The translations under genes and the position numbers were made by a program. A stretch of DNA of 34,398 nucleotides, taken from assembly GCA_017442785.1 (NCBI GenBank), contig JAFRZB010000003.1:1-34398 (forward strand), given 5' to 3'. Under the pieces are notes generated by a model. That model was given only the letters and a program-made list of their open reading frames with translations. It was not told the origin of the DNA and made no database searches. Source of the stretch: Bacillota bacterium (GTDB taxonomy: Bacteria; Bacillota; Clostridia; Peptostreptococcales; Anaerovoracaceae). Of the stretch, positions 6,693 to 24,010 are shown in pieces (within the stretch, counting starts at the first letter, position 1; each line of letters begins with the position of its first letter).

Positions 6693-6711
6693 CAGCTGCA
6701 GGAGGACGGAT

Positions 6712-7185: not shown

Positions 7186-7269
7186 GATGCGAAGACCCGG
7201 TCTGTATCACAGAAACTACAAAAATACGGCGGGCATTCTTCACACAGGCTTGCCGCAGATCACATATAA

Positions 7270-7325: not shown

Positions 7326-7352
7326 CCTTTAAGAACAGAAATAAGAAGCATC

Positions 7353-7381
7353 AGGGCGGACTCCAAAGAGCCCGCCCTTTT
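7353..7381 (+). terminator. Terminator after the GH3-glutathione peroxidase unit
   Basis: AGGGCGG (7353-7359) pairs with CCGCCCT (7372-7378). The inner CTC/GAG pairs around a CAAA loop, and TTTT follows. It isolates this unit from the T-box promoter at 7431. Confidence 0.8.
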
Positions 7382-7430
7382 GTTAGTCAGAAGCACGTTC
7401 CGATTTTTTGTGGAATCCCACAAAAAAGTG

Positions 7431-7459
7431 TTGACATTTTCGTCCGCCGGGAGCATAAT
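7431..7459 (+). promoter_or_regulatory. Promoter of the T-box leader/trpB2
   Basis: TTGACA (7431-7436), a 17-nt spacer, then CATAAT (7454-7459). The predicted start is near 7466, giving a leader of about 365 nt before the trpB start, of which the T-box fills the first 290. Confidence 0.85.
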
Positions 7460-7465
7460 ACACGT

Positions 7466-7758
7466 AATTTCATATTGAAATAAACCTGTGAGGAAGAGTA
7501 GTACCCTGCAAAGCAAAGCTATAGCTAGCTCCGGACGGTGGAAGCGGAGCGCGGCGCGGCAGGCGAATGGACTTCTGAGGGCGGACCGAAAAGCATCCTG
7601 AAAAGGAGCGCTCAGTAGGGACCGACGGGATCCCTCCTGTTACAAATCGGGGTGCCTGTGATGGCAGGCATAAGTGAGAGGCGCGCAAGCGCAACTCGGG
7701 TGGCAACGCAGAAGCAGACGCTTTTGTCCCGGGATACCGTGGATGAAAGCGTTTTTTT
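7466..7758 (+). promoter_or_regulatory. T-box riboswitch, tryptophan-specific
   Basis: The stem I internal-loop motif AGGAAGAGTAGTA lies at 7491-7503. The specifier region GAA-TGG-AC-TTCTGAG (7565-7579) places a UGG (Trp) codon at 7568-7570, followed by the usual purine. The T-box GGGTGGCAACGC is at 7698-7709. A full antiterminator can be drawn: CGGG (7697-7700) with CCCG (7728-7731), a 7-nt bulge TGGCAAC (7701-7707), then GCAGAAG (7708-7714) with CTTTTGT (7721-7727). The bulge UGGC would pair with GCCA, which fits the G discriminator expected for bacterial tRNA-Trp. Uncharged tRNA-Trp should stabilise this antiterminator and switch on the downstream TrpB2 gene. The T-box core differs from the common UGGNACC by having AAC. 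Confidence 0.92.
7718..7758 (+). terminator. T-box regulatory terminator
   Basis: ACGCTTT (7718-7724) pairs with AAAGCGT (7746-7752), and the T-run continues to 7758. Its left arm overlaps the CTTTTGTCCC used by the antiterminator (7721-7731), so the two structures exclude each other as expected of a T-box. Confidence 0.85.
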
Positions 7759-7831
7759 ATCCCACATTCCATCACATACAGGATGGCGGCAGGCGCAGGG
7801 CGCCCCGCAGAAAAGGAAAGAGGAAAACAAA

Positions 7832-9211
7832 ATGGCAAAGAAAGAGGCAGCACCGTACAAGATCTATCTTACAGAGAACGAGCTCCCAACAAGTTGGTAT
7901 AACCTGAGGGCGGACATGAAGACCAAGCCCGCTCCGTTCCTTCATCCGGGAACTCTTAAGCCCCTCAAGTTCGAGGAGATGCAGCCGATATTCTGCGACG
8001 AGCTTATAAAGCAGGAGCTGGACAACGATACTCCGTACATACCCATTCCGGAGCCCATCATGGACTTCTACAAGATGTACAGACCTTCGCCGCTGGTACA
8101 CGCTGAGTTCCTGGAGAAGCTCCTGGATACGCCGGCAAAGATCTACTATAAGTTCGAGGGCAACAACACTTCCGGAAGCCACAAGCTCAACTCCGCCATA
8201 GCTCAGGCCTACTACGCAAAGCAGCAGGGCCTTAAGGGAGTAACCACCGAGACCGGAGCCGGCCAGTGGGGCACGGCGCTTTCCATGGCCTGTTCTTACT
8301 TCGACCTCGACTGCAAGGTGTTCATGGTAAAGGTCTCCTACGAGCAGAAGCCTTTCAGAAGAGAGGTAATGAGGACTTACGGCGCTAACGTCACCCCGTC
8401 CCCCTCCATGGAGACAGAGGTCGGCCGCAGGATCAACGCGGAGCATCCGGGGACCACAGGATCCCTTGGCTGCGCCATCTCCGAGGCCGTTGAAGTTGCG
8501 GTAGGCACCCCGGGCTACAGATACGTTCTGGGAAGCGTGCTCAACCAGGTGCTCCTGCACCAGTCCGTCATAGGCCTTGAGACCAAGGCTGCCTGCGATA
8601 AGTACGGAATAGAGCCTGACATCATCATAGGCTGCGCAGGAGGCGGATCCAACCTGGGCGGACTTATTGCTCCGTTCATGGGCGAGAAGCTTCGCGGCGA
8701 GAAGGACTACAGGTTCATAGCCGTAGAGCCGGCATCCTGCCCCAGCTTTACCCGCGGCAAGTACGTTTACGACTTTGCTGATACCGGCAAGGTGTGCCCG
8801 ATGGCCAAGATGTACACCCTGGGCCACGACTTCATCCCCTCCGCCAACCACGCGGGCGGCCTTAGGTACCACGGCATGAGCCCGGTACTCTCCGAGCTCT
8901 ACGACGAAGGCCTCATGGAGGCAAGGTCCTACGAGCAGACCGCTGTGTTCGACGCGGCAGTCAAGTTCGCCAGGGTAGAGGGCATCCTCCCCGCTCCGGA
9001 ATCCGCCCACGCCATAAAGGGAGCCATAGACGAGGCCATAAGGTGCAGGGAGACCGGCGAGGAGAGAACCATAATCTTCGGTCTTACCGGGACCGGTTAC
9101 TTCGACCTCGTTGCCTACCAGAAGTACAACGACGGCCAGATGAGCGATTACATCCCCACCGACGAAGACCTTGAGAAGGGCTTCGCCAGCATCCCGAACA
9201 TCGGGCTGTAA
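7832..9211 (+). CDS. trpB: Tryptophan synthase beta-like enzyme (TrpB2 type)
   Basis: A 459-aa PLP enzyme of the TrpB2 group, longer than the usual TrpB1 of about 400 aa. The PLP lysine is Lys118 in N-T-S-G-S-H-K-L-N. The phosphate-binding loop is G-C-A-G-G-G-S-N-L-G-G, and the TrpB2-like stretch E-T-G-A-G-Q-W-G lies between. It condenses indole with serine to form tryptophan. TrpB2 proteins often act without TrpA, and no trpA or other trp gene is seen here, so indole salvage is a likely role (inference). The start at 7832 is behind AGGAAAGAGGAAA; longer in-frame extensions would run back into the T-box. The Trp-specific T-box and its promoter place it under tRNA-Trp control. A terminator follows at 9251. 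Confidence 0.9.
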   Translation: MAKKEAAPYKIYLTENELPTSWYNLRADMKTKPAPFLHPGTLKPLKFEEMQPIFCDELIKQELDNDTPYIPIPEPIMDFYKMYRPSPLVHAEFLEKLLDTPAKIYYKFEGNNTSGSHKLNSAIAQAYYAKQQGLKGVTTETGAGQWGTALSMACSYFDLDCKVFMVKVSYEQKPFRREVMRTYGANVTPSPSMETEVGRRINAEHPGTTGSLGCAISEAVEVAVGTPGYRYVLGSVLNQVLLHQSVIGLETKAACDKYGIEPDIIIGCAGGGSNLGGLIAPFMGEKLRGEKDYRFIAVEPASCPSFTRGKYVYDFADTGKVCPMAKMYTLGHDFIPSANHAGGLRYHGMSPVLSELYDEGLMEARSYEQTAVFDAAVKFARVEGILPAPESAHAIKGAIDEAIRCRETGEERTIIFGLTGTGYFDLVAYQKYNDGQMSDYIPTDEDLEKGFASIPNIGL

Positions 9212-9235
9212 CACAGGGGACGGTTCTCTATATCA
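9212..9235 (+). repeat. REP-like repeat, copy A
   Basis: The core AGGGGACGGTTCTCT begins 4 nt after the trpB stop codon; the repeat itself abuts the stop. It is the inverted partner of copy B (9306-9333), and the trpB terminator lies between them. It differs from copies B and C at its ends (CACA for CATA, and TATATCA for TGTGTCA). Confidence 0.8.
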
Positions 9236-9250
9236 CTGTATAACAGCAGC

Positions 9251-9276
9251 AAGGGAGTCTTCGGGCTCCCTTTTTT
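9251..9276 (+). terminator. trpB terminator with UUCG tetraloop
   Basis: AAGGGAGTC pairs with GGCTCCCTT around a TTCG loop closed by C-G (9259/9264), followed by TTTTTT. A strong intrinsic terminator. Confidence 0.92.
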
Positions 9277-9305
9277 ATTGGTCTTGCTTATGCCTGACGC
9301 GCAAA

Positions 9306-9333
9306 AAATGACACAGAGAACCGTCCCCTATGT
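9306..9333 (-). repeat. REP-like repeat, copy B (inverted)
   Basis: On the minus strand this copy is identical over 28 nt to copy C at 14746-14773, with core AGGGGACGGTTCTCT. It is inverted relative to copy A, making an A-terminator-B doublet. Its right edge abuts the TATAAT at 9334. Confidence 0.85.
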
Positions 9334-9339
9334 TATAAT
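9334..9339 (+). promoter_or_regulatory. -10 element of the AIM24-family gene
   Basis: TATAAT directly follows REP copy B. No good -35 is seen at 17 nt; the nearest resemblance is ATGACA (9308-9313) in the A-run and REP end, at 20 nt. Transcription from it would leave a short leader with AAAGGAGG before the ATG at 9362. Confidence 0.55.
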
Positions 9340-9361
9340 GTAAAAAAAAGGAGGTCGTGAA

Positions 9362-10042
9362 ATGAAATACGAGATAACCGGAGACAACGCCCCTGTCGTG
9401 ATATGCACGCTTGAGAACGGAGAGTCCATGATAACCGAGGGCGGCGGCATGGCATGGATGAGCCCCAACATGGAGATGGCGACCAGCGGAGGCGGAAGCC
9501 TGGGAAAGGCCCTCGGCCGTATGTTCTCGGGAGAGAAGATATTCCAGAACATATACACCGCGCGCGGCGGACAGGGCATGATAGCCTTTGCGCCGAGCTT
9601 CCCGGGACAGATACTTGCCCTGGACGTAACGCCCGACAAGCCGCTCATACTTCAGAAGAGGGCATTCCTTGCCTCTGAGAGCGGAGTTGAGCTTTCGTTA
9701 TACTTCCAGAAGAAGGGCATGACAGGCTTCTTCGGAGGAGAAGGCTTCATAATGCAGAAGGTGTCCGGCAAGGGCAAGGTGTTCATAGAGGTGGACGGAT
9801 CTGCGGTAACATATGACCTCGGTCCGGCGGAACAGCTTATCGTAGACACCGGGACGCTGGCCGCCATGGAAGCGACCTGCACCATGGATGTTGTGACTGT
9901 CAAGGGCGCCAAGAACATACTGTTCGGCGGAGAGGGCCTGTTCAACACCGTCGTCACCGGCCCGGGAAAGGTGACGCTGCAGACCATATCCTTCACCAAC
10001 CTGGTAAGCGCCATAGCAGCATCCATTCCGTCAAAGAGCTGA
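9362..10042 (+). CDS. AIM24 / TIGR00266 family protein
   Basis: A 226-aa glycine-rich beta-structured protein matching the AIM24 (TIGR00266) family. Recognisable stretches are M-I-T-E-G-G-G-M-A-W-M-S near the start, P-S-F-P-G-Q-I-L-A-L-D in the middle, and G-P-G-K-V-T-L-Q-T near the C-terminus. It has no signal peptide or membrane span, so it is probably cytoplasmic or peripheral. The bacterial role is not established; the name comes from a yeast mitochondrial protein. AAAGGAGG lies in front of the ATG. The next gene starts 29 nt downstream and probably shares the transcript. Confidence 0.82.
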   Translation: MKYEITGDNAPVVICTLENGESMITEGGGMAWMSPNMEMATSGGGSLGKALGRMFSGEKIFQNIYTARGGQGMIAFAPSFPGQILALDVTPDKPLILQKRAFLASESGVELSLYFQKKGMTGFFGGEGFIMQKVSGKGKVFIEVDGSAVTYDLGPAEQLIVDTGTLAAMEATCTMDVVTVKGAKNILFGGEGLFNTVVTGPGKVTLQTISFTNLVSAIAASIPSKS

Positions 10043-10071
10043 AAAACATATAGATAAAAGGGGGTAAAAAG

Positions 10072-10893
10072 ATGAAGACCGCAAAACAGCGCTGGTACCG
10101 CAAGTGGGACCTGGACATTTCAAAAGAGGACGTTAAGAAGGCAATAGATTCCAGCCTTGATCCAAAGGAGTACACCCAGATAAGGTTCGACGGGCCGTAC
10201 GCGCCCAAGGACAACGACGACCTTAAGGGAAAGACCCTGGTGTTCGAGGGCGAGGGGCATGTGTTCTCCTTCCGCGTCACGGACCTTAACACATTGTTCT
10301 TTGCCGAGGACGGAGGAGAGGAGAAGGAGTGCTACGTTCAGGTAAGGACTCTGGACAAGGAGCTCTACTTCCTGAACTTCCTCGTGCCCGGAGCCGAGAC
10401 CGCAAGGCAGATAAGCCTCATAGCCGACACCGTTACAGGATACAGCACGGTGTGCGATGCCCACATAGGCACGGAGAACTCCAACAGGGACGTAGGCCGT
10501 GAGTTCATCTTCGGGCGCCTTAAGGGAAGCTTTAAGGACGGCACGCCGCACTGCTTTACCAACGACCTTATCGGAAAGGCTGTCATATGGGACTACGGCG
10601 ACGGAGGTCCGTGCATAAAGCACATCTACAACTCCAACCTTTACTACACCTACATGATGGATTCCCCCAACGGAGCGTGGGTGGCGTCCAACCCGGCGGA
10701 CTACATAAAGGTGAAGGACAACATCTACATCTTCTCCTTCATAGAGGAGCGCCAGCCCGGACTGCAGATGCTGCTTCTGATCTACATGGACAAGCTGCAC
10801 GACCTCGGATCCTGCTTCGGAGTGGGCAAGGGACTGCGCAGTGCGTGCGTGGGAGCCGTAGGAAAAGAGGCCGATCCGTACGCTGTTTTCTAG
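10072..10893 (+). CDS. MoaF-like (lipocalin-fold) protein, tentative
   Basis: A 273-aa soluble protein, probably two beta-barrel-like halves. The C-terminal half contains W-D-Y-G-D-G-G-P, then H-I-Y-N-S-N-L-Y-Y-T-Y and F-S-F-I-E-E-R-Q-P-G. This resembles the MoaF family as I remember it, which is lipocalin-like and was named from molybdenum cofactor operons. The N-terminal half has L-K-G-K-T-L-V-F-E-G-E-G, like a first barrel strand. No molybdenum genes are nearby, so the historical name says nothing about its job. A plausible alternative is a binding protein for a small aromatic or lipid ligand. It follows the AIM24-family gene by 29 nt with GGGGG before the ATG, and the unit ends at the terminator at 10961. 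Confidence 0.55.
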   Translation: MKTAKQRWYRKWDLDISKEDVKKAIDSSLDPKEYTQIRFDGPYAPKDNDDLKGKTLVFEGEGHVFSFRVTDLNTLFFAEDGGEEKECYVQVRTLDKELYFLNFLVPGAETARQISLIADTVTGYSTVCDAHIGTENSNRDVGREFIFGRLKGSFKDGTPHCFTNDLIGKAVIWDYGDGGPCIKHIYNSNLYYTYMMDSPNGAWVASNPADYIKVKDNIYIFSFIEERQPGLQMLLLIYMDKLHDLGSCFGVGKGLRSACVGAVGKEADPYAVF

Positions 10894-10960
10894 TTAAAAT
10901 TTCTACTGAATGATAAAAAGAAGACATCCGGACATCGTTCGAATATTACAGAACATTTTA

Positions 10961-10990
10961 AAAGGCAGACCGGAAATCGGTCTGTCTTTT
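10961..10990 (+). terminator. Terminator before the purine operon
   Basis: AAAGGCAGACCG (10961-10972) pairs over 12 bp, with one G-U pair, with CGGTCTGTCTTT (10978-10989). The T-tail is short (10987-10990). Confidence 0.82.
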
Positions 10991-11024
10991 GGCCTGTTTT
11001 ACGCAGAAAAAGCCCTCTTTGCTG

Positions 11025-11030
11025 TATAAT
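11025..11030 (+). promoter_or_regulatory. purE: -10 element of the purine operon
   Basis: TATAAT is preceded directly by TG. No clear -35 lies 17 nt upstream. The leader to the purE ATG is only about 25 nt, so there is no room for a purine riboswitch. A weak -35 would suit activation or repression by a protein. A clear PurR box was not found. Confidence 0.6.
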
Positions 11031-11061
11031 AAATACGCAGTTTTATTTTCGGAGGAAACAC

Positions 11062-11544
11062 ATGAAAAAAGTCGGAATAATAATGGGAAGCGACAGCGAT
11101 ATGCCTATAGCTCAGAAGGCTGCGGACATGCTTAAGAGCCTGGGCGTTCCCTACGAGGCGCACATCTTTTCCGCGCACAGAACGCCGGAGCAGGCAAGGG
11201 AATTTGCCCTCAATGCCAGGAAGAACGGCTTCGGAGCGCTGATCGCAATGGCAGGCATGGCGGCCCATCTTGCGGGAGCCATAGCGGCCAATACCACCAT
11301 CCCCGTGATAGGTATCCCCTGCAAGTCCGGAGCGCTTGCCGGAATAGACGCGCTGCTTGCTACCGTGCAGATGCCCACAGGCATACCGGTAGCTACCGTT
11401 GCGATAGACGGCGGAGGCAACGCTGCGCTGCTGGCTGCCCAGATAATAGCGGTAGAGGACGCGGAGCTTGCCGAAAAGCTCGACGCAAAGCGCAGGACGG
11501 ATTCCGCCAAGGTCCTTGCAAAGGACGAGGCCCTGTCTCTTTAA
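11062..11544 (+). CDS. purE: N5-carboxyaminoimidazole ribonucleotide mutase (PurE class I)
   Basis: A 160-aa enzyme converting N5-CAIR to CAIR. It carries M-G-S-D-S-D-M-P at the start, S-A-H-R-T-P near residue 35-40, and G-M-A-A-H-L-A-G, the class I form. Class I enzymes normally work with PurK, but no purK is in this window. Either purK lies elsewhere or this PurE uses AIR and CO2 directly; I cannot tell which. CGGAGG precedes the ATG. It is the first gene of the operon, and purC follows after 45 nt. Confidence 0.95.
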   Translation: MKKVGIIMGSDSDMPIAQKAADMLKSLGVPYEAHIFSAHRTPEQAREFALNARKNGFGALIAMAGMAAHLAGAIAANTTIPVIGIPCKSGALAGIDALLATVQMPTGIPVATVAIDGGGNAALLAAQIIAVEDAELAEKLDAKRRTDSAKVLAKDEALSL

Positions 11545-11589
11545 TACAGTTTAAAAAACATTTCACATAAGTTCCAAAGGAGAAAGAAA

Positions 11590-12276
11590 ATGGAAAACAA
11601 GCTCGTTTACACAGGAAAGACCAAGAACGTTTACGCAATGCCCAACGGACATTATCTTCTTAAGTTCAAGGACGACTGCACCGGAGCAGACGGTGTGTTC
11701 GATCCTGGCATGAACACCGTAGGCCTCACCATCGAGGGTGTCGGCGACGTAAACCTCCGCATGACTGACTACTTCTTCAAGCTCATAAACGAGGCTGGCA
11801 TCCGCACCCACTTCGTAAAGGCCAACTTCGAAGACACCACCATGGAAGTCCTTCCTGCAAAGGTATTCGGCAAGGGTCTTGAGGTGATCTGCCGCTACAA
11901 GGCAGTAGGAAGCTTCTTCCGCCGCTACGAGCAGTACTGCACCCTCGGCCAGGATCTTCCGGCCTACGTTGAGATGACCTTCAAGAACGACGAGAAGGGC
12001 GATCCGCTCGTCACCAAGGAAGGCCTTATCGTTCTTGGCGTAATGACCGCCGAGCAGTATGACGCCATCGTTGAGATGACCAAGAAGATCACCAAGATCG
12101 TCGCCGACGAGATGACCAAGCGCGGCATGGACCTCTACGACATCAAGTTCGAGTACGGCTACGACGCCGACGGCAAGGTAATGCTGATCGACGAGATCGC
12201 CTCCGGCAACATGCGCGTTTACAAGAACGGAGAATACATCGACCCGATGACGCTCTCCAAGCTGTTCTTCGCGTAA
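11590..12276 (+). CDS. purC: SAICAR synthetase
   Basis: A 228-aa enzyme joining CAIR and aspartate with ATP to form SAICAR. It begins [15 protein letters not shown], the family's nucleotide-binding opening, and has [11 protein letters not shown] near the end. Full length for the family. AAGGAG lies before the ATG. Its stop codon overlaps the purF start by one base (TAATG), so translation is coupled. Codon use differs from its neighbours: by hand count 11 of 12 Ile codons are ATC, while purE uses ATA for 10 of 14. Confidence 0.95.
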
Positions 12277-13703
12277 TGGGCGGTTTCTTCGGCGCAGTCT
12301 CAAGCGGAAGAAGTGTGGTCCTGGACGTTTTCTTCGGAACGGACTATCACAGCCACCTTGGAACAAACAGCGCGGGGCTTATGTTCTGGGACAGCGAAAA
12401 GGGCTTTTCCAGAGAGCTTCATAATATCTCAAATACGCCTTTCCGCACCAAGTTCGAGAACGACCTCTACAAGTTCTCCGGAAGCTGCGGAATAGGCTGC
12501 ATAAGCGATTCCGACCCTCAGCCGCTGCTGGTAAAGTCGCAGCTCGGGGTATACGCGATAACCACGACAGGCCTCATCAACAACGCAGATGAGCTTATCG
12601 AGGACGTTTTCAGAAGGGATCACAACCAGTTTATGGTGCTGAGCTCGGGCAAGGTAAATACCACCGAGCTCGTTGCAGCGCTAATAAACCAGCAGAGCAC
12701 CATAGCCGAGGGCATAAAGCACGCCCAGCGCGTCATAAAAGGCTCCATGAGCATAGTGATCATGACGGACAAGGGCGAGATCATAGCGGCAAGAGACGCG
12801 CTCGGCCGCACCCCGGTGCACGTGGGCAGGAGCCAGGACGCGCAGTGCGTATCCTTTGAGTCCTTCGCCTACGGAAAGCTCGGGTATCACGACAGCAGAG
12901 AGCTGGGCCCCGGAGAGATAGTAAGGCTCACCGCGGACTCCCAGGAGGTGCTGGCAGAACCCGGCAAGGACATGAAGATTTGCGCCTTCCTCTGGAGCTA
13001 CTACGGCTATCCGAACTCGGACTACGAGGGCGTCAACGTGGAGCTGATGCGCTACCACAACGGCGAGAGCATGGCTCAGGCCGAGATGGACCGAGGCACG
13101 CTTCCGGATGTGGACTACGTGGCGGGAGTGCCGGATTCCGGCGTTCCGCACGCCATAGGCTATTCCACCAGGAGCCGCAAGACCTTCGCAAGGCCATTCG
13201 TAAAGTATACGCCCACCTGGCCGAGATCCTTCATGCCAAACGACCAGTCCGTAAGGAACATGGTCGCCAAGATGAAACAGCTGCCGGTAGACAGGCTGAT
13301 AAGAGGCAAAAAGCTGCTGTTCGTGGACGACTCCATAGTCCGCGGGACTCAGCTCAGGGAGACCGTAGACTTCCTCTACGAGTCGGGAGCAAAGGAAGTG
13401 CACATGCGCTCCGCCTGCCCCCCGATAATGTACTCCTGCAAGTATCTCAACTTCAGCCGCGGCAACTCCGACATGGACCTGCTTGCGAGAAGGACCATAC
13501 AGGAGATAGAGGGCGACGAGGGCTCAAAGCACATAGCGGAATATGCCGACGCAGGCACCGAGCGCGGCAAGTGCCTGCTCTCCACCATCTGCAAAAAACT
13601 GGGCTTCGATTCCCTGGGCTACCAGAGCCTTGACGGGCTGCTGGACGCCATAGGGCTCGACAGGGACAAGGTGTGCACTTATTGCTGGACAGGAAAGGAA
13701 TAG
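12276..13703 (+). CDS. purF: PurF-type amidophosphoribosyltransferase with degenerate glutaminase site
   Basis: A 475-aa protein in the PurF family, which makes phosphoribosylamine from PRPP and glutamine. The phosphoribosyltransferase half is intact, with the PRPP loop L-F-V350-D351-D352-S-I-V-R-G-T. The N-terminal Ntn half is not canonical. The protein begins M-G-G-F-F-G where M-C-G-I-x-G is expected, so the Cys1 nucleophile is Gly. The H-V-R-Y-S-T region reads G74-C-I-S-D-S-D, losing the Arg. The H-N-G-N motif reads T96-T-T-G-L-I-N-N. Glutamine hydrolysis is therefore unlikely, and free ammonia or a partner amidotransferase would be needed. The start is fixed by the TAATG overlap with purC. 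Such MGGFFG paralogues are, as I recall, found in Clostridia and Bacteroidetes; this one sits in the main pur operon. Confidence 0.85.
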   Translation: MGGFFGAVSSGRSVVLDVFFGTDYHSHLGTNSAGLMFWDSEKGFSRELHNISNTPFRTKFENDLYKFSGSCGIGCISDSDPQPLLVKSQLGVYAITTTGLINNADELIEDVFRRDHNQFMVLSSGKVNTTELVAALINQQSTIAEGIKHAQRVIKGSMSIVIMTDKGEIIAARDALGRTPVHVGRSQDAQCVSFESFAYGKLGYHDSRELGPGEIVRLTADSQEVLAEPGKDMKICAFLWSYYGYPNSDYEGVNVELMRYHNGESMAQAEMDRGTLPDVDYVAGVPDSGVPHAIGYSTRSRKTFARPFVKYTPTWPRSFMPNDQSVRNMVAKMKQLPVDRLIRGKKLLFVDDSIVRGTQLRETVDFLYESGAKEVHMRSACPPIMYSCKYLNFSRGNSDMDLLARRTIQEIEGDEGSKHIAEYADAGTERGKCLLSTICKKLGFDSLGYQSLDGLLDAIGLDRDKVCTYCWTGKE

Positions 13704-13708
13704 AGAAC

Positions 13709-14746
13709 ATGAAGAGCAGATCCGAGTCTTACGCCGCCGCAGGCGTGGATATCGAAGCGGGCTACGAGGGCGTCAAGCTCATAAAGCCCCTGGTAGAAAA
13801 GACCAACATCCCCGGCGTGGTCTCCGGAATAGGAGGCTTCGGCGGGCTGTTCGCCCCGGACGTTAAGGGCATGGAGGAGCCGATACTGGTCTCCGGTACC
13901 GACGGCGTGGGCACCAAGCAGCGCATAGCGCAGATCCTCGGCAAGAACGACACAGTAGGCATAGACTGCGTTGCCATGTGTGTAAACGACATCATCTGCT
14001 GCGGAGCAAAGCCGCTGTTCTTCCTGGACTACATAGCCATAGGAAAGAACATACCCGAAAAGGTGGCGGAGCTTGTGGCAGGCGTTGCCGAAGGCTGCGT
14101 GCAGGCGGGCTGCGCCCTGATAGGCGGAGAGACAGCCGAGCACCCGGGCACCATGGCCGCCGACGACTACGATCTTGCGGGCTTTTCGGTAGGCATGGTG
14201 GATAAGAAAAAGCTCATAGACAACGACCGCATGCAGGAGGGCGACGTCATAATAGCGCTTCCTTCAAGCGGCATACATTCCAACGGCTACTCTCTGGTAA
14301 GGAAGGTCTTCGACGTTGAGAACGCGGACCTTTCCGTAAAGCCGGAGGAGCTCGGCGGGCAGACCCTTGGCGAGGCGCTTCTTACGCCTACCAGGATATA
14401 CGTAAAGCCTGTCCTGGCGCTTCTTGAGAAGGCGGACGTAAGGGGCATAAGCCACATAACCGGAGGCGGCTTCTACGAGAACGTCCCCAGGTCCATACCC
14501 GACGGGCTCTGCGCCGTGATAGACAGGGCGTCCGTAAAGATACCGCCGATCTTCAGTCTTCTTCAGAAGAAGGGCGGCATACCCGAGCGCGACATGTTCA
14601 ACACCTACAACATGGGCGTGGGCATGGTAGTGATAGTTGCCCCGGGGGACGCGGACAAGGCTCTTGAGGTCCTTAAGGAAAGCGGCGAGGACGCCTACGT
14701 AATAGGAAAGGTCGCAAAGGGCGAGGACAAGATAATAATCAAATGA
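13709..14746 (+). CDS. purM: Phosphoribosylformylglycinamidine cyclo-ligase (AIR synthetase)
   Basis: A 345-aa enzyme closing the imidazole ring of FGAM to AIR with ATP. I chose the ATG at 13709, 5 nt after the purF stop, because it gives S-Y-A-A-A-G-V-D-I-E-A-G, the typical start; an earlier in-frame ATG at 13673 lies inside purF. Other marks are V-S-G-T-D-G-V-G-T-K, L-I-G-G-E-T-A-E-H-P-G and H-I-T-G-G-G-F. It has the usual length for the family. A REP-like repeat abuts its stop codon, in the gap before purN. Confidence 0.96.
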   Translation: MKSRSESYAAAGVDIEAGYEGVKLIKPLVEKTNIPGVVSGIGGFGGLFAPDVKGMEEPILVSGTDGVGTKQRIAQILGKNDTVGIDCVAMCVNDIICCGAKPLFFLDYIAIGKNIPEKVAELVAGVAEGCVQAGCALIGGETAEHPGTMAADDYDLAGFSVGMVDKKKLIDNDRMQEGDVIIALPSSGIHSNGYSLVRKVFDVENADLSVKPEELGGQTLGEALLTPTRIYVKPVLALLEKADVRGISHITGGGFYENVPRSIPDGLCAVIDRASVKIPPIFSLLQKKGGIPERDMFNTYNMGVGMVVIVAPGDADKALEVLKESGEDAYVIGKVAKGEDKIIIK

Positions 14747-14773
14747 CATAGGGGACGGTTCTCTGTGTCATTT
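14741..14773 (+). repeat. REP-like repeat, copy C
   Basis: The core AGGGGACGGTTCTCT is flanked by AAATGACA (14741-14748) and TGTCATTT (14766-14773), an 8-bp perfect inverted pair. The TGA stop of purM is formed inside the left arm. The copy matches copy B over 28 nt (14746-14773). It lies in the purM-purN gap of the operon mRNA. Confidence 0.88.
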
Positions 14774-14788
14774 CATCGGGAGGAAATG

Positions 14789-15406
14789 ATGGCTGGCGAA
14801 AAGAAAGCAAGGATAGCCGTGCTGGTATCCGGCGGCGGAACTAATCTTCAGGCGCTGATAGACGCGCAGAAGTCCGGGATCATAAAGAGCGGCGAGATAG
14901 TCCTGGTGGTATCCAACAAGACGGGGGCGTATGCCCTTGAAAGGGCGGAGAAGGCGGGGATAAAGGCCGTAACGCTTACCAGAAAGGCCTGCGGCGGAAA
15001 GGAGGGCTTCGAAAAGGCCCTTTGCGAGCTGCTGGAGGCAGAGAAGATAGACCTCATAGTGCTTGCCGGTTTCCTTGCGATACTGAGCGCGGACTTTACC
15101 TCAAGGTATCCGGAGCGCATAATAAACGTGCACCCGTCTCTTATCCCGAGCTTTTGCGGCGAGGGCTTCTACGGGCTTACAGTGCACGAGAGAGCGCTTG
15201 AGTACGGCGTGAAGGTCACCGGAGCCACGGTGCATTTTGTCAACGAGATCCCCGACGGAGGAAAGATAATACTCCAGAAGGCGGTATACATAGAGGACGG
15301 GGACACCCCGGAGGTGCTGCAGCGCCGCGTAATGGAGCAGGCTGAGTGGATCATCCTGCCTCAGGCGGTGGAAAAGGTCAGCGCGGACATAGTAAACAAA
15401 GCATAG
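14789..15406 (+). CDS. purN: Phosphoribosylglycinamide formyltransferase (10-formyl-THF)
   Basis: A 205-aa enzyme formylating GAR from 10-formyltetrahydrofolate. It has R-I-A-V-L-V-S-G-G-G-T-N-L-Q-A-L at the N-terminus, then I-N-V-H-P-S-L-I-P with the catalytic Asn and His, and I-P-D-G-G-K-I with the catalytic Asp. The loop after the His reads S-F-C-G-E-G-F-Y-G, a clostridial variant of the usual P-x-Y-x-G. Two ATGs are adjacent (14786 and 14789); GGAGG at 14779-14783 is 5 nt from the second, which I prefer. The REP copy ends 4-5 nt before that ribosome binding site, so a hairpin there could affect its use. Confidence 0.94.
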   Translation: MAGEKKARIAVLVSGGGTNLQALIDAQKSGIIKSGEIVLVVSNKTGAYALERAEKAGIKAVTLTRKACGGKEGFEKALCELLEAEKIDLIVLAGFLAILSADFTSRYPERIINVHPSLIPSFCGEGFYGLTVHERALEYGVKVTGATVHFVNEIPDGGKIILQKAVYIEDGDTPEVLQRRVMEQAEWIILPQAVEKVSADIVNKA

Positions 15407-15427: not shown

Positions 15428-16057
15428 ATGGATCTTATTAAGTTCCTTAAGGAAACAAGCTACCCCGGACGCGGGATCGTCATCGGAAACAACGTGGCGT
15501 ACTACTGGATAATGGGCCGTTCCGAGAACAGCCGCAACCGCATATTCGCGCTCACTGAGGACGGGATAGAGACCCGCGCCTTTGACGAGAGCAAGGTGGC
15601 GGACCCGAGCCTTATAATATATCATCCGGTGCGCGACACCGAAAAGGGTCTGATCGTAACCAACGGCAACCAGACCGACACCATAGCCGACATGGGATGC
15701 TTCAAGAAGGCCCTCATGACCCGCGAGTACGAGCCGGACGAACCGAACTGGACTCCGCGCATCTCCGCCATGATATACAAGGATGGAAGCTTCGACATCT
15801 CCATCCTTAAGCACTTAGGCGGCACGTGCCTTCGCGAGTTCTTCTGCTACGAGAAGGCAGCCGAGGGCAAGGGCTACTTTATAAGCACCTACCAGGGCGA
15901 CGGCAAGCCGCTGCCCAGCTTTGCGGGCGAGCCCATAGAAGTGGATCTTCCCACCCCGGACGAGCTCTGGAAGGCTCTTAACATCGACAATAAGGTCTCG
16001 CTGTATACCAACGTGGGCGGCGAGGTAAGGATATTCAACAAGCACCTGGGAGATTAA
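15428..16057 (+). CDS. PurO-like IMP cyclohydrolase
   Basis: A 209-aa protein of the archaeal-type IMP cyclohydrolase family (PurO), which closes FAICAR to IMP. Recognisable stretches are P-G-R-G-I-V-I-G-N near the start, Y-W-I-M-G-R-S-E-N-S-R-N-R, and T-P-R-I-S-A-M in the middle. The usual bacterial solution is one PurH protein with both activities. Here this gene sits 10 nt upstream of a stand-alone AICAR transformylase, so the pair replaces PurH. GGAGG is upstream of the ATG. It is 21 nt after purN. Confidence 0.88.
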   Translation: MDLIKFLKETSYPGRGIVIGNNVAYYWIMGRSENSRNRIFALTEDGIETRAFDESKVADPSLIIYHPVRDTEKGLIVTNGNQTDTIADMGCFKKALMTREYEPDEPNWTPRISAMIYKDGSFDISILKHLGGTCLREFFCYEKAAEGKGYFISTYQGDGKPLPSFAGEPIEVDLPTPDELWKALNIDNKVSLYTNVGGEVRIFNKHLGD

Positions 16058-16067
16058 GGAGAAAGAG

Positions 16068-17243
16068 ATGAAAACATTTGAACTAAAGTACGGATGCAAC
16101 CCCAACCAGAAGCCGGCCTTCGTAAGCATGAAGGACGGATCCGAGCTTCCCTTCACCATACTCAACGGACGCCCCGGATACATCAACTTCATGGACGCCC
16201 TCAACTCCTACCAGCTGGTAAAGGAGCTCAAGGAGGCCACAGGCCTTCCGAGCGCTGCCAGCTTTAAGCACGTATCCCCGGCAGGAGCTGCCGTGGCAAA
16301 GCCGCTTACGGACATCGACAGGAAGATATACTTCGTGGAGCAGGAGAGCGTATCTCCCATAGCAAGCGCCTACATCAGGGCCCGCGGAGCCGACAGGCTC
16401 TGCTCCTACGGAGACTGGGCAGCGCTCTCCGACGTCTGCGACGCGGATGTCGCCAACTACCTTAAGCTGGAGGTGTCCGACGGAATAATCGCCCCGGGAT
16501 ATACCGACGAGGCCCTTGAGATACTCAAGACCAAGAAGGGCGGAAAGTACAACGTCATACAGATAGACGAGAACTACGTCTGCGCTCCTCAGGAATGCAA
16601 GGACGTCTACGGAATAACCTTCGAGCAGGGACACAACAACTTCAAGATCAACGAGGACCTGCTCAAGAACATAGTTACAAAGAACAAGGAGCTCCCCAAG
16701 GAGGCCGTCACGGACATGATAGTCTCCCTGATAACCCTTAAGTACACCCAGAGCAACTCCGTCTGCTACGTAAAGGACGGCATGGCCATAGGCGTAGGCG
16801 CCGGCCAGCAGAGCCGCATCCACTGCACAAGGCTTGCCGGAAGCAAGGCCGACAACTGGTATCTGCGCCAGTGCCCGAAGGTCCTGAGCCTGCCCTGGAA
16901 GGAGAACGTGCGCCGTCCCGACAGAGACAACGCCATAGACGTATACACCTCCGACGAGTACGAGGACATACTCCGCGACGGCGAGTGGCAGAAGGTGTTC
17001 ACGGAAAAGCCCGAGGTCCTTACCGCAGAGGAAAAGAAGGCCTGGATAGCCACTCAGAGCGGCGTCACGGTAGGCTCCGACGCGTTCTTCCCCTTCGGTG
17101 ACAACATCGAAAGAGCCCGCAAGTCCGGAGCCGCATACATTGCCGAGCCGGGCGGATCCATAAGGGACGACAACGTCATAGAGACAGCGGATAAGTACAA
17201 CATGGTGATGGCCTTTACAGGAATGAGGCTCTTCCACCACTGA
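16068..17243 (+). CDS. AICAR formyltransferase (PurH transformylase domain only)
   Basis: A 391-aa enzyme formylating AICAR to FAICAR with 10-formyl-THF. It resembles the C-terminal part of PurH: L-K-Y-G-C-N-P-N-Q-K-P near the start, L-N-G-R-P-G-Y-I-N-F-M-D-A-L-N, then F-K-H-V-S-P-A-G, the catalytic Lys-His motif. The N-terminal cyclohydrolase domain of PurH is absent and the separate PurO-like gene just upstream should supply it. GGAG precedes the ATG. It is 10 nt after the PurO-like gene; the LRR membrane protein follows after 19 nt. Confidence 0.92.
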   Translation: MKTFELKYGCNPNQKPAFVSMKDGSELPFTILNGRPGYINFMDALNSYQLVKELKEATGLPSAASFKHVSPAGAAVAKPLTDIDRKIYFVEQESVSPIASAYIRARGADRLCSYGDWAALSDVCDADVANYLKLEVSDGIIAPGYTDEALEILKTKKGGKYNVIQIDENYVCAPQECKDVYGITFEQGHNNFKINEDLLKNIVTKNKELPKEAVTDMIVSLITLKYTQSNSVCYVKDGMAIGVGAGQQSRIHCTRLAGSKADNWYLRQCPKVLSLPWKENVRRPDRDNAIDVYTSDEYEDILRDGEWQKVFTEKPEVLTAEEKKAWIATQSGVTVGSDAFFPFGDNIERARKSGAAYIAEPGGSIRDDNVIETADKYNMVMAFTGMRLFHH

Positions 17244-18998: not shown

Positions 18999-20264
18999 AT
19001 GAAGATCCTTGTTGTAGGAGGCGGCGGAAGAGAGCACGCCATAATCAAGAAGATAAAGGAGAACCCGTCCGTGGACGCCATCTACGCGCTGCCCGGAAAC
19101 GCCGGCATGGCGGAGGACGCGGACTGCGTGAATATAAGCGCCTCGGATCTCGACGGGATAGTGAGCTTTGCCAAGGGGCACGGCGTGGACTACGCCGTAG
19201 TTGCTCCCGACAACCCGCTGGTTGACGGATGCGTGGACAGGCTCGAGGCAGAGGGCATACCGTGCTTCGGACCGCGCGCAAATGCCGCGATAATAGAGGG
19301 CAGCAAGGTCTTCTCCAAGAACCTGATGAAGAAATACGGCATTCCGACGGCTGCCTACGAGGTGTTCACTGACGCCAGGAAGGCCCTGGAATATGTAAAG
19401 ACCTGCCCCATACCCACAGTAGTAAAGGCCGACGGTCTGGCTCTGGGCAAGGGCGTAATAATAGCAGAGACCCGCAAGGACGCCGAGGACGCCATAGTCT
19501 CCATAATGGAGGACAAGAAGTTCGGCGCCAGCGGCAACAGCATAGTAATAGAAGAGTTCCTGGAAGGACCGGAGGTATCCGTGCTGTCCTTTACCGACGG
19601 CAAGGTGGTGGTGCCTATGGTATCCTCCATGGACCACAAGAGAGCCCTGGACGGAGACAAGGGACTCAACACCGGCGGCATGGGCACCATTGCTCCTAAC
19701 CCGTACTACACGGAGGAGATAGCGGAGCGCTGCATGAAGGAGATCTTCATCCCCACCATGGACGCCATGAACAAGGAAAACAGGACCTTCAAGGGCTGCC
19801 TTTATTTCGGCCTTATGCTGTGCAAGGACGGCCCGAAGGTGATAGAATATAACTGCCGCTTCGGAGACCCGGAGACCCAGGTGGTGCTGCCGCTACTTAA
19901 GAGCGACCTTCTTACCGTAATGCAGGCCGTGACTGACGAGCGCCTTGCCGAGACTCCGGTAGAGTTCTCAGACGGAGCGGCGTGCTGCGTGGTAGTAGCG
20001 TCCGAGGGCTATCCGGGAAGCTACGAGAAGGGCAAGCCCCTCGTCATCGAGGACGAGGTAAAGGACAAGGTCTTCGTTGCCGGAGCTGCCTTCAGGAACG
20101 GCATCCTGGTGACCAACGGAGGCCGCGTGCTGGGCTGCACGGCTACTGCGGAGGATCTCCCTTCTGCCATAGAGGCCGCCTACAAGGTAGTGGAGAAGGT
20201 ACACTTCGAGAACGCATACTGCAGAAAGGACATAGGCGCCAAGGCACTTAAGGCGCTCAGATAA
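18999..20264 (+). CDS. purD: Phosphoribosylamine-glycine ligase (GAR synthetase)
   Basis: A 421-aa ATP-grasp enzyme joining phosphoribosylamine and glycine. It begins M-K-I-L-V-V-G-G-G-G-R-E-H-A-I. The ATP-grasp stretch is V-K-A-D-G-L-A-L-G-K-G-V, and N-T-G-G-M-G-T-I-A-P-N-P-Y and Y-N-C-R-F-G-D-P-E-T-Q-V follow. Full length for the family. GGGAG lies before the ATG. It takes the unstable product of the upstream PurF-like enzyme. purL starts 11 nt after it. Confidence 0.96.
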   Translation: MKILVVGGGGREHAIIKKIKENPSVDAIYALPGNAGMAEDADCVNISASDLDGIVSFAKGHGVDYAVVAPDNPLVDGCVDRLEAEGIPCFGPRANAAIIEGSKVFSKNLMKKYGIPTAAYEVFTDARKALEYVKTCPIPTVVKADGLALGKGVIIAETRKDAEDAIVSIMEDKKFGASGNSIVIEEFLEGPEVSVLSFTDGKVVVPMVSSMDHKRALDGDKGLNTGGMGTIAPNPYYTEEIAERCMKEIFIPTMDAMNKENRTFKGCLYFGLMLCKDGPKVIEYNCRFGDPETQVVLPLLKSDLLTVMQAVTDERLAETPVEFSDGAACCVVVASEGYPGSYEKGKPLVIEDEVKDKVFVAGAAFRNGILVTNGGRVLGCTATAEDLPSAIEAAYKVVEKVHFENAYCRKDIGAKALKALR

Positions 20265-20275
20265 AAGGAGCAGAC

Positions 20276-23200
20276 ATGGTCTACAGAGTTTATTCAGAGA
20301 AGAAGAAGGAGTTCGCGCACGAGGCAAAGGCACTGCTGCTGGAGGCTAACAAGCTTCTGGGCATAGAAGGGCTTAAGGACGTAAGGGTAATAAACCGTTA
20401 CGACGCGGAGAAGATAAGGCCGGAGCTCTTCGAATACGCCAAGACGGCGGTGTTCTCGGAGCCCCAGGTGGATATCTGCACGGAGACGCCGGACCTTAAA
20501 GGCGCTTCGGTCTTTGCGGTGGAATATCTTCCCGGACAGTTCGATCAGCGCGCGGATTCCGCGGCGCAGTGCATACAGCTGATCTCCCAGGAGGAGAGAC
20601 CGCTGGTGCGTTCCGCCAAGGTCTACGCTCTCTACGGAGATCTTTCGGACGATGACATAGCCGAGATAAAGAAGTACGTGATAAACCCTGTGGAGGCCAG
20701 AGAGGCTTCGCTGGACATCCCCGATACTCTGGAGATGAGCTACGCGGTGCCCGAGAGCGTAGCGGTCCTGGACGGCTTCCTTGCCCTTGATGAGCAGGGC
20801 CTTTCCGACTTCATAAAAGCCAACGGCCTTGCCATGGACCTTGCGGACATAAAGTTCTGCCAGGACTACTTTAAGACCGAGGGCCGCTGCCCCACGATCA
20901 CCGAGATAAAGGTAATAGACACCTACTGGTCCGACCACTGCCGCCATACCACCTTCGGGACCATAATCGACAGCGTCACCTTTGAGGACGAGCTGCTGCA
21001 GGACACCTGGAACGACTACATCGCCGTGCGCAAGGAGCTCGGCAGGACCAAGCCGGTATGCCTTATGGACCTTGGCACCATAGGCGCTAAATATCTTAAG
21101 GCGAAGGGCCTTCTGGACAAGCTGGACGAGTCCGAGGAGGTGAACGCCTGCACCGTAAAGCTGGATGTTGAGATAGAGGGCAAAAAGGAGCCCTGGCTGC
21201 TTCTTTTCAAGAATGAGACCCACAACCACCCGACGGAGATAGAGCCCTTCGGCGGCGCCGCCACCTGCATAGGCGGAGCCATCAGAGACCCGCTCTCCGG
21301 AAGGTCTTATGTATACGCGGCCATGAGAGTCACCGGCGCTGCGGATCCGACAGTTCCGATCAGCCAGACCATACCCGGAAAGCTCCCCCAGAGGAAGCTC
21401 GTATCCACCGCAGCCGCAGGATATTCCTCCTACGGCAATCAGATAGGCCTTGCCACAGGCATAGTAGACGAGCTCTACCACCCGGGCTACGCAGCCAAGC
21501 ACATGGAGATAGGGGCCGTGATCGCCGCCGCACCTGCTGAGAACGTGCGCAGGGAAAGGCCGTCCGCAGGAGATGCGGTGATACTCCTGGGCGGAAGCAC
21601 CGGACGCGACGGAATAGGCGGAGCCACCGGTTCCTCCAAGGCCCACGACGTCCATTCCGTAGAGAACTGCGGGGCGGAGGTCCAGAAAGGAAACGCGCCC
21701 GAGGAAAGAAAGCTCCAGAGGCTCTTCAGGAACGCTGCAGCCGCAAAGATGATAAAGCGCTGCAACGACTTCGGCGCGGGCGGAGTATCCGTTGCCATAG
21801 GAGAGCTGGCTGACGGTCTTACTGTGGACCTTAACGCGGTGCCCAAGAAGTACGAGGGTCTGGACGGCACGGAGCTTGCAATAAGCGAGAGCCAGGAGAG
21901 GATGGCGGTGGTAGTAGCCGCAGAAGACGTTCCTGCCTTCCTTGAGCTTGCCGCATCCGAGAACCTTCAGGCAGTGCAGGTGGCGACTGTCACCGAGGAG
22001 CCCAGACTGGTGCTCTCCTGGAACGGTCAGAAGATAGTGGATATCAGCAGGGAGTTCCTCAACTCCAACGGCGCTGAGAAGCATATAGAAGTAGAAGTAG
22101 CGAAGTCCTGGCCGGAGAGAAGGAAGATCAACGGCGAGACCTTCGCCGAAAAATACATAGCCATGGCCGAGAGCCTCAACTGCTGCTCAAGGCGCGGCCT
22201 TTCCGAAAGGTTCGACTCCACCATAGGCGCGGGCACCGTCCTGATGCCCTTCGGCGGTAAGAACCAGATGACGCCCATCCAGGCCATGGTCAACAAGATA
22301 TCCGTAGAGGACAGGGACACGGACACCTGCTCCGTAATGTCCTGGGGCTACAACCCCTTCCTCACCGAGAGCTCCCCGTACCACGGCGCGTACACCGCTG
22401 TGGTGGAATCCGCCGCCAAGCTGGTTGCCACGGGCGCGGAGTTTAAGGACGTATACCTCACCTTCCAGGAGTACTTCGAAAAGCTCGGAAGGGACAGCAA
22501 AAAGTGGGGCAAGCCGCTGGCTGCTCTTCTGGGAGCCTTCAGGGCACAGAAGGAGCTCGGCATAGCTGCCATCGGAGGGAAGGACTCCATGTCCGGTTCC
22601 TTCGAGGACATACACGTTCCGCCGACGCTTGTATCGTTCGCGGTGACAGACGAAAAGATAGAGAATATCATAAGCCCCGAGTTCAAGTGCGTGGGAAGCT
22701 CCGTCTTAAGGATCTCCCCCAGGCTTGGAAAGGACAGGCTCCCCGAGGCACAGTCCCTGCTGGCGCTGTTCGGGTACATCACCATGCTCCAGAGGAGCGG
22801 CGCGGTCCTGGCCTGCTATACACCCGGCATGGGCGGCACTGCGGAGGCGATATTCAAGATGTGCATAGGAAACGGCTTCGGATTTAAGTTCGACGACGGC
22901 CTTGCCGCCGTGGACACCAGGCTGTTCAACTACGACTACGGCAGCTTCATAGTAGAGCTCGGAGAGGCGCCGGACGGCATATTCTCCCAGGATCAGATCC
23001 CCGAAGGCGTGAGCGTGGGCTTCCTCGGAAGGACCACTGACGACGGAAAGATCTCCCTCGGAGAGGAAGAGGTAGGCGTGGACATCATAACCGCGGCCTA
23101 CGAGAACAAGCTCGAGGGCATATACAGCTGCAACATAAAGCAGGAGATAGGCAAGGTGGAGAACATCAGCTTTGAAGCAGACGCCTGGGCGTCTCCTGCC

Positions 23201-24010
23201 GTAAAGACAGCAAAGCCGAAGCTCCTTATACCGGTCTTCCCCGGCACCAACTGCGAGTACGACAGCGCCAAGGCTGCCGCGGCCGCAGGTCTTGATCCGC
23301 AGATCATGGTCATAAGGAACCTCAGCTCCGACGACGTTTCAAGAAGCGTAGACGAGTTCGCAAAGGCGGCCTCCCAGTCCCAGATAATATTCATACCCGG
23401 CGGATTCTCCGGCGGAGACGAGCCGGAAGGCAGCGCCAAGTTCATTACAGCGTTCTTCAGGAACGGCGCTGTAAAAGAGCAGGTCACGGAGCTGCTCGAA
23501 AGGCGTGACGGACTGATGCTCGGAATATGCAACGGCTTCCAGGCGCTTGTAAAGCTCGGTCTGGTTCCCTACGGAAAGATCGTCGATACCGACGCGGACA
23601 GCCCGACGCTCACATTCAACATCATAGCAAGGCATCAGTCGCGCATAGTCCGCACCCGCATCGCGAGCAACAAATCTCCGTGGCTGGCACTCACAAAGCC
23701 GGGCGAGATCTACAGCGTGCCCATCTCCCACGGCGAGGGACGCTTCATAGCAGGCGACGAGGAGCTCAGAAAACTCATCGAGAATGGTCAGGTCGCTACT
23801 CAGTACGTGGATCTCGACGGCATGGCCAGCGCTGACGTGCGCTTCAACCCCAACGGATCGGTGATGGCGATCGAAGGCATCACCAGCCCGGACGGAAGGG
23901 TGCTCGGAAAGATGGGCCACTCGGAGCGTGTCGGCAAGGGCCTCTACAGGAACGTTCCCGGAGACTACGACATAAAGCTCTTCGCTGCAGCGAAGGAATA
24001 CTTCAGGTAA
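20276..24010 (+). CDS. purL: Phosphoribosylformylglycinamidine synthase, single-chain
   Basis: A 1244-aa enzyme converting FGAR and glutamine to FGAM. It is the large one-chain clostridial type, with the PurS-, PurL- and PurQ-equivalent parts in one protein, so purS and purQ are not needed. The central part has Y-W-S-D-H-C-R-H-T-T-F, N-E-T-H-N-H-P-T-E-I-E-P-F-G-G-A and G-G-K-D-S-M-S-G. The C-terminal glutaminase has the nucleophile C1085 in G-I-C-N-G-F-Q and the H1152/E1154 pair in P-I-S-H-G-E-G-R-F. In contrast to the operon's PurF, its glutaminase looks complete. AAGGAG lies before the ATG. It is the last gene of the operon. Confidence 0.96.
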   Translation: MVYRVYSEKKKEFAHEAKALLLEANKLLGIEGLKDVRVINRYDAEKIRPELFEYAKTAVFSEPQVDICTETPDLKGASVFAVEYLPGQFDQRADSAAQCIQLISQEERPLVRSAKVYALYGDLSDDDIAEIKKYVINPVEAREASLDIPDTLEMSYAVPESVAVLDGFLALDEQGLSDFIKANGLAMDLADIKFCQDYFKTEGRCPTITEIKVIDTYWSDHCRHTTFGTIIDSVTFEDELLQDTWNDYIAVRKELGRTKPVCLMDLGTIGAKYLKAKGLLDKLDESEEVNACTVKLDVEIEGKKEPWLLLFKNETHNHPTEIEPFGGAATCIGGAIRDPLSGRSYVYAAMRVTGAADPTVPISQTIPGKLPQRKLVSTAAAGYSSYGNQIGLATGIVDELYHPGYAAKHMEIGAVIAAAPAENVRRERPSAGDAVILLGGSTGRDGIGGATGSSKAHDVHSVENCGAEVQKGNAPEERKLQRLFRNAAAAKMIKRCNDFGAGGVSVAIGELADGLTVDLNAVPKKYEGLDGTELAISESQERMAVVVAAEDVPAFLELAASENLQAVQVATVTEEPRLVLSWNGQKIVDISREFLNSNGAEKHIEVEVAKSWPERRKINGETFAEKYIAMAESLNCCSRRGLSERFDSTIGAGTVLMPFGGKNQMTPIQAMVNKISVEDRDTDTCSVMSWGYNPFLTESSPYHGAYTAVVESAAKLVATGAEFKDVYLTFQEYFEKLGRDSKKWGKPLAALLGAFRAQKELGIAAIGGKDSMSGSFEDIHVPPTLVSFAVTDEKIENIISPEFKCVGSSVLRISPRLGKDRLPEAQSLLALFGYITMLQRSGAVLACYTPGMGGTAEAIFKMCIGNGFGFKFDDGLAAVDTRLFNYDYGSFIVELGEAPDGIFSQDQIPEGVSVGFLGRTTDDGKISLGEEEVGVDIITAAYENKLEGIYSCNIKQEIGKVENISFEADAWASPAVKTAKPKLLIPVFPGTNCEYDSAKAAAAAGLDPQIMVIRNLSSDDVSRSVDEFAKAASQSQIIFIPGGFSGGDEPEGSAKFITAFFRNGAVKEQVTELLERRDGLMLGICNGFQALVKLGLVPYGKIVDTDADSPTLTFNIIARHQSRIVRTRIASNKSPWLALTKPGEIYSVPISHGEGRFIAGDEELRKLIENGQVATQYVDLDGMASADVRFNPNGSVMAIEGITSPDGRVLGKMGHSERVGKGLYRNVPGDYDIKLFAAAKEYFR

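Follow-up and report, generated by a model that had tools for sequence, protein, structure and literature searches.

Purine synthesis is committed by the reaction of PurF, the textbook example of a glutamine amidotransferase. Pairs of enzymes that carry out one reaction with either ammonia or glutamine include AsnA and AsnB, as well as the ammonia- and glutamine-dependent forms of NadE. In PurF from Escherichia coli, replacement of Cys1 by Ala or Ser abolishes the use of glutamine, while the use of ammonia is retained (Mei and Zalkin 1989, as cited in PMC3261824). A PurF paralogue that lacks the N-terminal Cys and is encoded near purine genes, PurF', is known in crenarchaea, and its authors have put forward the untested proposal that it is an ammonia-dependent PRPP aminotransferase (Brown et al. 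2011, PMC3261824).

The stretch of DNA analysed here (the window, 34,398 nucleotides) carries a purine operon whose purF position is occupied by purF* (12276..13703, + strand), identified from TIGR01134 and a PDB sequence search as a gene for a 475-aa PurF homologue that is devoid of the glutaminase site and is referred to below as MGG-PurF. It has the two-domain layout and four cysteines of the Bacillus subtilis-type PurF (1gph, 1ao0; TIGR01134) but differs from it in having no propeptide, no Cys1, a deleted glutamine loop, and an altered flexible loop. Whereas AsnA is unrelated to AsnB, MGG-PurF and canonical PurF are homologous, with the glutaminase domain apparently kept as a dead scaffold. 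The E. coli Cys1 variants are laboratory point mutants whose glutamine pocket is otherwise intact, unlike that of MGG-PurF. The crenarchaeal PurF', as described in PMC3261824, is likewise a Cys-less PurF homologue encoded near purine genes (true of MGG-PurF in 67 of 80 loci), but many PurF' proteins are reported to have Ala or Val at the Cys site in place of the Gly of MGG-PurF. The crenarchaea studied each also have a Cys-type PurF, as does the window's genome; of the 107 family genomes that encode MGG-PurF, 29 have both forms and 78 the MGG form alone. That paper treats archaea, and the likeness is drawn from its description.

The window's MGG-PurF scores 176.9 bits against TIGR01134, well below the curated cut-off of 350, and similar scores are obtained by MGG-PurFs from Bacteroides (177.8), Adlercreutzia (181.7), and locus L134 (159.4). 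Its best PDB match in a sequence search is B. subtilis PurF 1ao0 (4.7e-42), and, as regards the type I phosphoribosyltransferase fold, it reaches 17.6 bits with Pfam PF00156, below the cut-off of 26.3, the PRPP-binding motif itself being present. Annotated MGG-PurF records bear the names amidophosphoribosyltransferase or hypothetical protein. The translation of 12276-13703 begins with M-G-G-F-F-G, and the purC stop codon (TAA, 12274-12276) overlaps the purF* ATG at 12276 by 1 nt. In 34 of 132 parsed family members, three codons or fewer are open upstream of the MGG start, the boundary being an in-frame stop in 33 of them and a contig end in one (L089). The start codon is fixed by the purC overlap and, independently of it, by the in-frame stops just upstream in relatives, and the argument of the first-pass annotation, that a 1-nt overlap with purC speaks against a misread start, holds. 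The same evidence rules out a hidden propeptide with a Cys, and the cleaved propeptide of the B. subtilis-type PurF is absent from MGG-PurF (a stop within three codons in 33 of 132 members, and the purC overlap). Residue 2 is Gly in all 134 family members, the window's included (132 parsed by script plus L046 and L110 read by eye, a set that overlaps with the 135-row alignment below). The Gly at the Cys site and its family-wide invariance are far beyond chance.

The operon has the order purE-purC-purF*-purM-purN-PurO-type IMP cyclohydrolase-AICAR formyltransferase-(LRR protein)-purD-purL. On the + strand it comprises purE (11062..11544; TIGR01162, 194.8 bits), a divergent purC (11590..12276; TIGR00081, 107.3 bits, cut-off 189.9), purF*, purM (13709..14746, start ATG 13709; TIGR00878, 441.4 bits), purN (14765..15406; TIGR00639, 196.9 bits), an IMP cyclohydrolase-like protein of the PurO type (15428..16057; PF07826, 157.4 bits), a stand-alone AICAR formyltransferase (16068..17243; NF005492, 704.8 bits), purD (18999..20264; TIGR00877, 528.3 bits), and a purL with its own glutaminase domain (20276..24010), in which the class I motifs G-I-C-N-G and H1215-x-E are present. 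Between the AICAR formyltransferase gene and purD lies a gene (17263-18939) for a protein of 558 aa that matches leucine-rich repeats. The PurH function is thus split (15428-17243) between a PurO-type cyclohydrolase and a separate formyltransferase, an arrangement usually described for archaea. The genome has two purC genes, the divergent operon copy (107.3 bits) and a canonical copy in a nitrogen cluster (L004:13521-14243, 262.9 bits), and a joint displacement of purC and purF is possible. No Rfam family matched at the gathering score in the window or in three other stretches of the same genome, so that riboswitch control found no support there.

Active-site residues were compared in an alignment of 15 canonical PurF rows and 135 MGG rows, one of which is the window's. 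L008, whose frame runs on into purM, L046 and L110, whose starts could not be parsed, and two canonical rows that are truncated (L074 and Sulfurovum) lie outside both the alignment and the dN/dS analysis. The catalytic Cys1, present in 15/15 canonical rows, is Gly in 135/135 MGG rows (Gly2 codon at 12279..12281, +). The R-Y-x-T columns are gaps in all 135 MGG rows, and the window has C75-I-S-D-S-D-P at this deleted glutamine loop (12498..12518, +). The H-N-G-N motif aligns with T97-T98-G99-L100 (12564..12575, +), where Gly alone is kept; across the MGG rows its H and N are lost, and the G is kept in 131. T129 (12660..12662, +) aligns with the Asp of the T-D-S-E motif, which is invariant in 15/15 canonical rows and is mostly Ser, Ala, Thr, or Asn in MGG rows. 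In canonical PurF this residue, Asp127, has a glutamine-binding role, and Asn101 also has a role in the active site. All glutaminase-site residues examined, except one Gly, have been lost from MGG-PurF. Arg73, Thr76, and Gly102 of PurF contact the glutamine analogue DON in simulations (PMC7953260).

The phosphoribosyltransferase side presents a different picture. The PRPP loop (D351-D-S-I-V-R-G-T358, 13326..13349, +) is intact, VDDSIVRGTQ being whole in the window; D351, D352, S353, V355, R356, G357, and T358 are kept in 135/135 MGG rows and I354 in 134, and the PRPP-side residues K310, R317, and K334 are kept in all 135. Cys236 and Cys388 are retained in 135/135 MGG rows and Cys467 and Cys470 in 134, with their canonical counterparts conserved in 15, 15, 15, and 14 of 15 rows; these four are presumably ligands of an Fe-S cluster. 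In the flexible loop, the canonical Y314 is replaced by T and T318 by S, so that the PRPP-side reaction, too, could differ. Other class II enzymes of the same genome retain their Cys (AsnB, MCS; GlmS, MCG; canonical PurF, EECGVF). The first-pass annotation had reported a lost glutaminase site, with Gly for Cys1 in M-G-G-F-F-G, T-T-G-L in place of H-N-G-N, the Arg of R-Y-S-T gone, and the PRPP loop intact. All of this is borne out in the window, with the Gly, the gapped R-Y-x-T columns, and the PRPP loop recurring across the 135 aligned rows, and the loss in the glutamine loop extends beyond the Arg to the entire stretch. The loss of the Asp127 equivalent, the four Fe-S-type cysteines, and a second, canonical PurF in the genome are additions to that account.

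The dead glutaminase domain is under purifying selection. In four same-genus pairs, dN/dS is 0.07-0.13 in this N-terminal domain and 0.04-0.08 in the other domain, the N-terminal ratios being rough for two of the four pairs, in which dS exceeds 1. A recent pseudogene is ruled out by these ratios and by the family-wide invariance. Compared with the 15 canonical rows, MGG-PurF has a mean identity of about 25% over the N domain and 34% over the C domain.

A search for homologues yielded at least 597 matched stretches, 596 of which encode a relative, and the best 80, which lean to the window's kin, were kept. MGG-PurF members are found in Bacillota and Actinomycetota, plus Bacteroides, Parabacteroides, and Phocaeicola, the spread in Bacteroidota being drawn from three records. 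In a tree built from 28 selected rows of the 135 MGG rows and 15 canonical rows (quick method, midpoint root), one branch with an SH-aLRT of 100 splits MGG from canonical PurF and places Bacteroidota inside the MGG side, although long branches, above all Saprospira, may join falsely. As judged from its sequences, MGG-PurF is a deep, old, and widespread clade with no local loss, and the earlier wording that the PurF of this operon "has lost" its site is misleading in suggesting a recent event. Among 14 control genomes, that of Bacteroides ihuae, in which purD is present, is the only one without a TIGR01134 match at 1e-100; its weaker match may be GlmS. In the three Bacteroidota records (L139, L140, L149), the MGG-PurF gene is followed in every case by pepT and then gcvT, a gene of glycine cleavage, which frees ammonia, and in Peptoclostridium (L138) pepT adjoins the MGG-PurF gene. 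The annotated Bacteroidota "plasmid" records carry the housekeeping genes eno, rplU, and nusB and look like pieces of chromosome, and much of a GenBank "Bacteriophage sp." entry (L141, MT836108.1) is a bacterial purine operon in which an MGG and a canonical purF gene stand in tandem. No title or abstract found in the literature, where subscription papers were mostly beyond reach, describes the bacterial MGG-PurF clade, its role as the sole PurF, or its gene company, all of which seem to be new.

In the window's family, replacement of the canonical PurF is common. The family sample comprised 166 genomes (165 filtered at ≥90% completeness plus the window's own), with MGG defined by a P0001 match below 1e-50 and canonical PurF by a P0002 match below 1e-100, with fragments included. 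The MGG form alone was detected in 78 genomes, the canonical form alone in 47, both in 29, and neither in 12; a Cys-type PurF thus accompanies the MGG form in 29 of the 107 MGG-bearing genomes and is absent from 78. purD is present in 76/78 MGG-only, 45/47 canonical-only, and 29/29 both-type genomes and in 1/12 with neither form, and the single exception (G043) has a C-terminal MGG fragment at a contig end. The difference in purD presence between MGG-only genomes and those with neither form has a Fisher p of 2e-11, computed on relatives and hence on genomes that are not independent. Many of the genomes are incomplete MAGs; in two single-contig genomes, 97% and 98% complete (G107 and G160), MGG is the only PurF form. 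The G107 operon, purE-purM-purN-purO-AICARFT-purD-purL, has no purF, and a solitary MGG gene elsewhere is its only PurF homologue, while in G160 the MGG gene lies inside the purine operon. In G009, a fragmented MAG of the window's genus (82% complete), purF* and purM form one 812-aa frame (L008:490-2925), although an error of sequencing or assembly could also account for this.

A canonical PurF was likewise not found in 24 of the 50 named genomes taken from the best 80 (completeness not stated), among them Adlercreutzia equolifaciens DFI.6.87 and Evtepia gabavorous KLE1738, the latter with the operon purE-purF*-purM-purN-purO-AICARFT-purD-purL. Across the phylum, such replacement is rare: in a sample of 398 Bacillota genomes, drawn evenly, 29 besides the window's own bear MGG-PurF, in 27 cases alongside a canonical PurF, the exceptions being G629 and G634. 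This coexistence implies that only certain lineages use the MGG form alone, and that elsewhere it may have a separate role.

The window's own genome, an 80% complete MAG, belongs to those with both forms. Its canonical PurF (C38, 515.6 bits) has all the motifs and is encoded in the cluster GSIII-Amt/PII-purF-asnB-dapF-dapL-glmS-purC, of which GSIII-amt-purF-asnB-dapF-dapL recurs in two genomes of the same genus, G005 (with glmS next) and G010 (glmS missing from its stretch); in both, the MGG copy is near purD and the canonical copy is in this nitrogen cluster. According to the first-pass annotation, its reading would fall if the work were done by a canonical purF at another place in the genome. 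Such a gene does exist, but its presence is not decisive, as 78 of the 166 family genomes have the MGG form alone, 76 of them with purD. In the window's own organism, where a canonical PurF is present, the MGG form is a candidate for the working enzyme and no more than that.

Gene neighbourhoods were labelled by tblastn with named query genes, a procedure that replaced a greedy ORF map confounded by antisense ORFs. At least one purine gene lies beside MGG-PurF in 67 of the best 80 loci, and no purine gene is nearby in 13, 10 of which are Coriobacteriia by record title; canonical and MGG genes stand in tandem, in both orders, at 8 of the 80. With the named query genes, no dedicated partner glutaminase was seen in the window operon or in the 80 loci. 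The canonical PurF gene and purD lie no more than 12 kb apart in 41/45 canonical-only genomes versus 7/29 both-type genomes (Fisher p 4e-9, with related genomes not independent and contig breaks scored as far). Of the 29 both-type genomes, 15 have the MGG gene near purD, 5 have the canonical gene there instead, and 9 have neither. In MGG-only genomes with purD, the MGG gene is within 12 kb of it in 55 of the 71 that could be placed (5 of the 76 are omitted, their gene places being split, partial, or not listed) and farther away in 16. Among 20 stretches around canonical PurF genes, 11 contain GSIII and/or asnB, in 9 cases no more than 2.5 kb away; these stretches, which the GSIII tally covers, were hand-chosen (G002 and 19 both-type genomes other than the 7 whose canonical gene is near purD), and several end at contig breaks. 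Such a layout would be compatible with a glutamine-type PurF linked to the making of glutamine and an ammonia-type PurF encoded in the operon.

A further companion of MGG-PurF is carB. The phylum sample includes four f34 genomes with MGG-PurF, and in all of them it is encoded directly downstream of a second carB, giving five pairs (L153, L157, L158, L159, and L182). Sequence identity is 89-97% among the paired carBs and 45-47% between them and the other carB of these genomes, which in each case has an adjacent carA; no carA was found near the paired carB in the fetched 10-16 kb. In the window's own genome, the pyr operon pyrC-carB-pyrK-pyrD-pyrF-pyrE (L184, C47:30000-44000, 5749-13470) has a carB and, in the fetched 14 kb, no carA, and a carA-carB pair is located in an arginine operon on C36 (L183). 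A carB without carA is suggestive only as a sign of ammonia use, and a shared CarA would explain the arrangement without ammonia. The carB ORF of the arginine operon (L183:2452-6513) encodes 1353 aa, about 280 aa beyond the 1066-1089 aa of most others read, and no CarB match at 1e-50 was found in the single-contig, MGG-only genome G107.

These data make it probable that MGG-PurF is an ammonia-dependent PRPP aminotransferase able to replace PurF. The phosphoribosyltransferase half would convert PRPP and free NH3 to phosphoribosylamine, and the N-terminal half would serve as a conserved scaffold that neither binds nor hydrolyses glutamine. Ammonia is the expected donor because the E. coli Cys1 mutants keep ammonia activity and the same proposal has been made for the crenarchaeal PurF'. 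In genomes with both types, the Cys-type enzyme could serve when ammonia is scarce, with glutamine made by glutamine synthetase. A more tentative proposal, on balance doubtful, is a two-isozyme nitrogen switch in anaerobes, in which an ancient ammonia-using MGG-PurF, often alone, would sometimes be joined by a carA-less carB (using ammonia likewise, for pyrimidines or arginine), and a glutamine-type PurF (often near glutamine synthetase) with CarAB would be reserved for poor nitrogen, or PurF would be lost.

The first-pass annotation had offered either free ammonia or a partner glutaminase, and the former is now the best explanation, while the latter found no support in the 80-locus maps (named genes only). 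Amidotransferases with separate glutaminase subunits do exist, PurLQ and CarAB providing the precedent, and the conserved N domain of MGG-PurF could form a docking surface. A separate glutaminase or amidase subunit that docks there and supplies NH3 is nevertheless unlikely, as the neighbours in the 80 loci are ordinary purine genes (although a partner could be missed with named queries) and the f34 operon companion is carB itself, without a glutaminase neighbour. MGG-PurF might instead be a regulatory or structural subunit in a mixed tetramer with the Cys-type PurF, as the tandem genes at 8/80 loci, in both orders, and the coexistence in 27 of 29 phylum-sample genomes could be taken to mean; this is quite improbable in view of the 78/166 family genomes and 24/50 named genomes in which no Cys-type PurF was found and of the PRPP-loop residues, whose conservation is broken by a single row at a single position.

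A different PRPP-dependent reaction with another amine acceptor, outside purine synthesis, appears very unlikely. It would accommodate the altered flexible loop, the 13/80 loci with no purine gene nearby, and the company of pepT (Peptoclostridium), pepT-gcvT (3/3 Bacteroidota records), and carB (f34 genomes), but not readily the purine gene beside MGG-PurF in 67 of the 80 loci nearest to the window's protein, the in-frame join to PurM in G009, or the way in which MGG-PurF tracks purD. The least probable reading is that the canonical PurF, with all its motifs at C38, does all the work in the window's organism and the window copy is vestigial; dN/dS of about 0.13 or less in both domains speaks against it, as do the same-genus genomes G005 and G010, which keep MGG near purD and the canonical gene in the nitrogen cluster.

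If MGG-PurF is an ammonia-dependent aminotransferase, it would be a natural case of a glutaminase domain kept as a scaffold after its chemistry was lost, in which the ammonia channel and interdomain signalling could be studied without the donor reaction. The annotation as EC 2.4.2.14 would then be wrong for MGG-PurF, and the expected sensitivity to glutamine analogues (DON, azaserine) would need revision. MGG-PurF is carried by many gut bacteria, which probably start purine synthesis from free ammonia; should this be true for many gut Clostridia, Coriobacteriia, and Bacteroidota, nitrogen models and predictions of purine auxotrophy would have to be revised for them.
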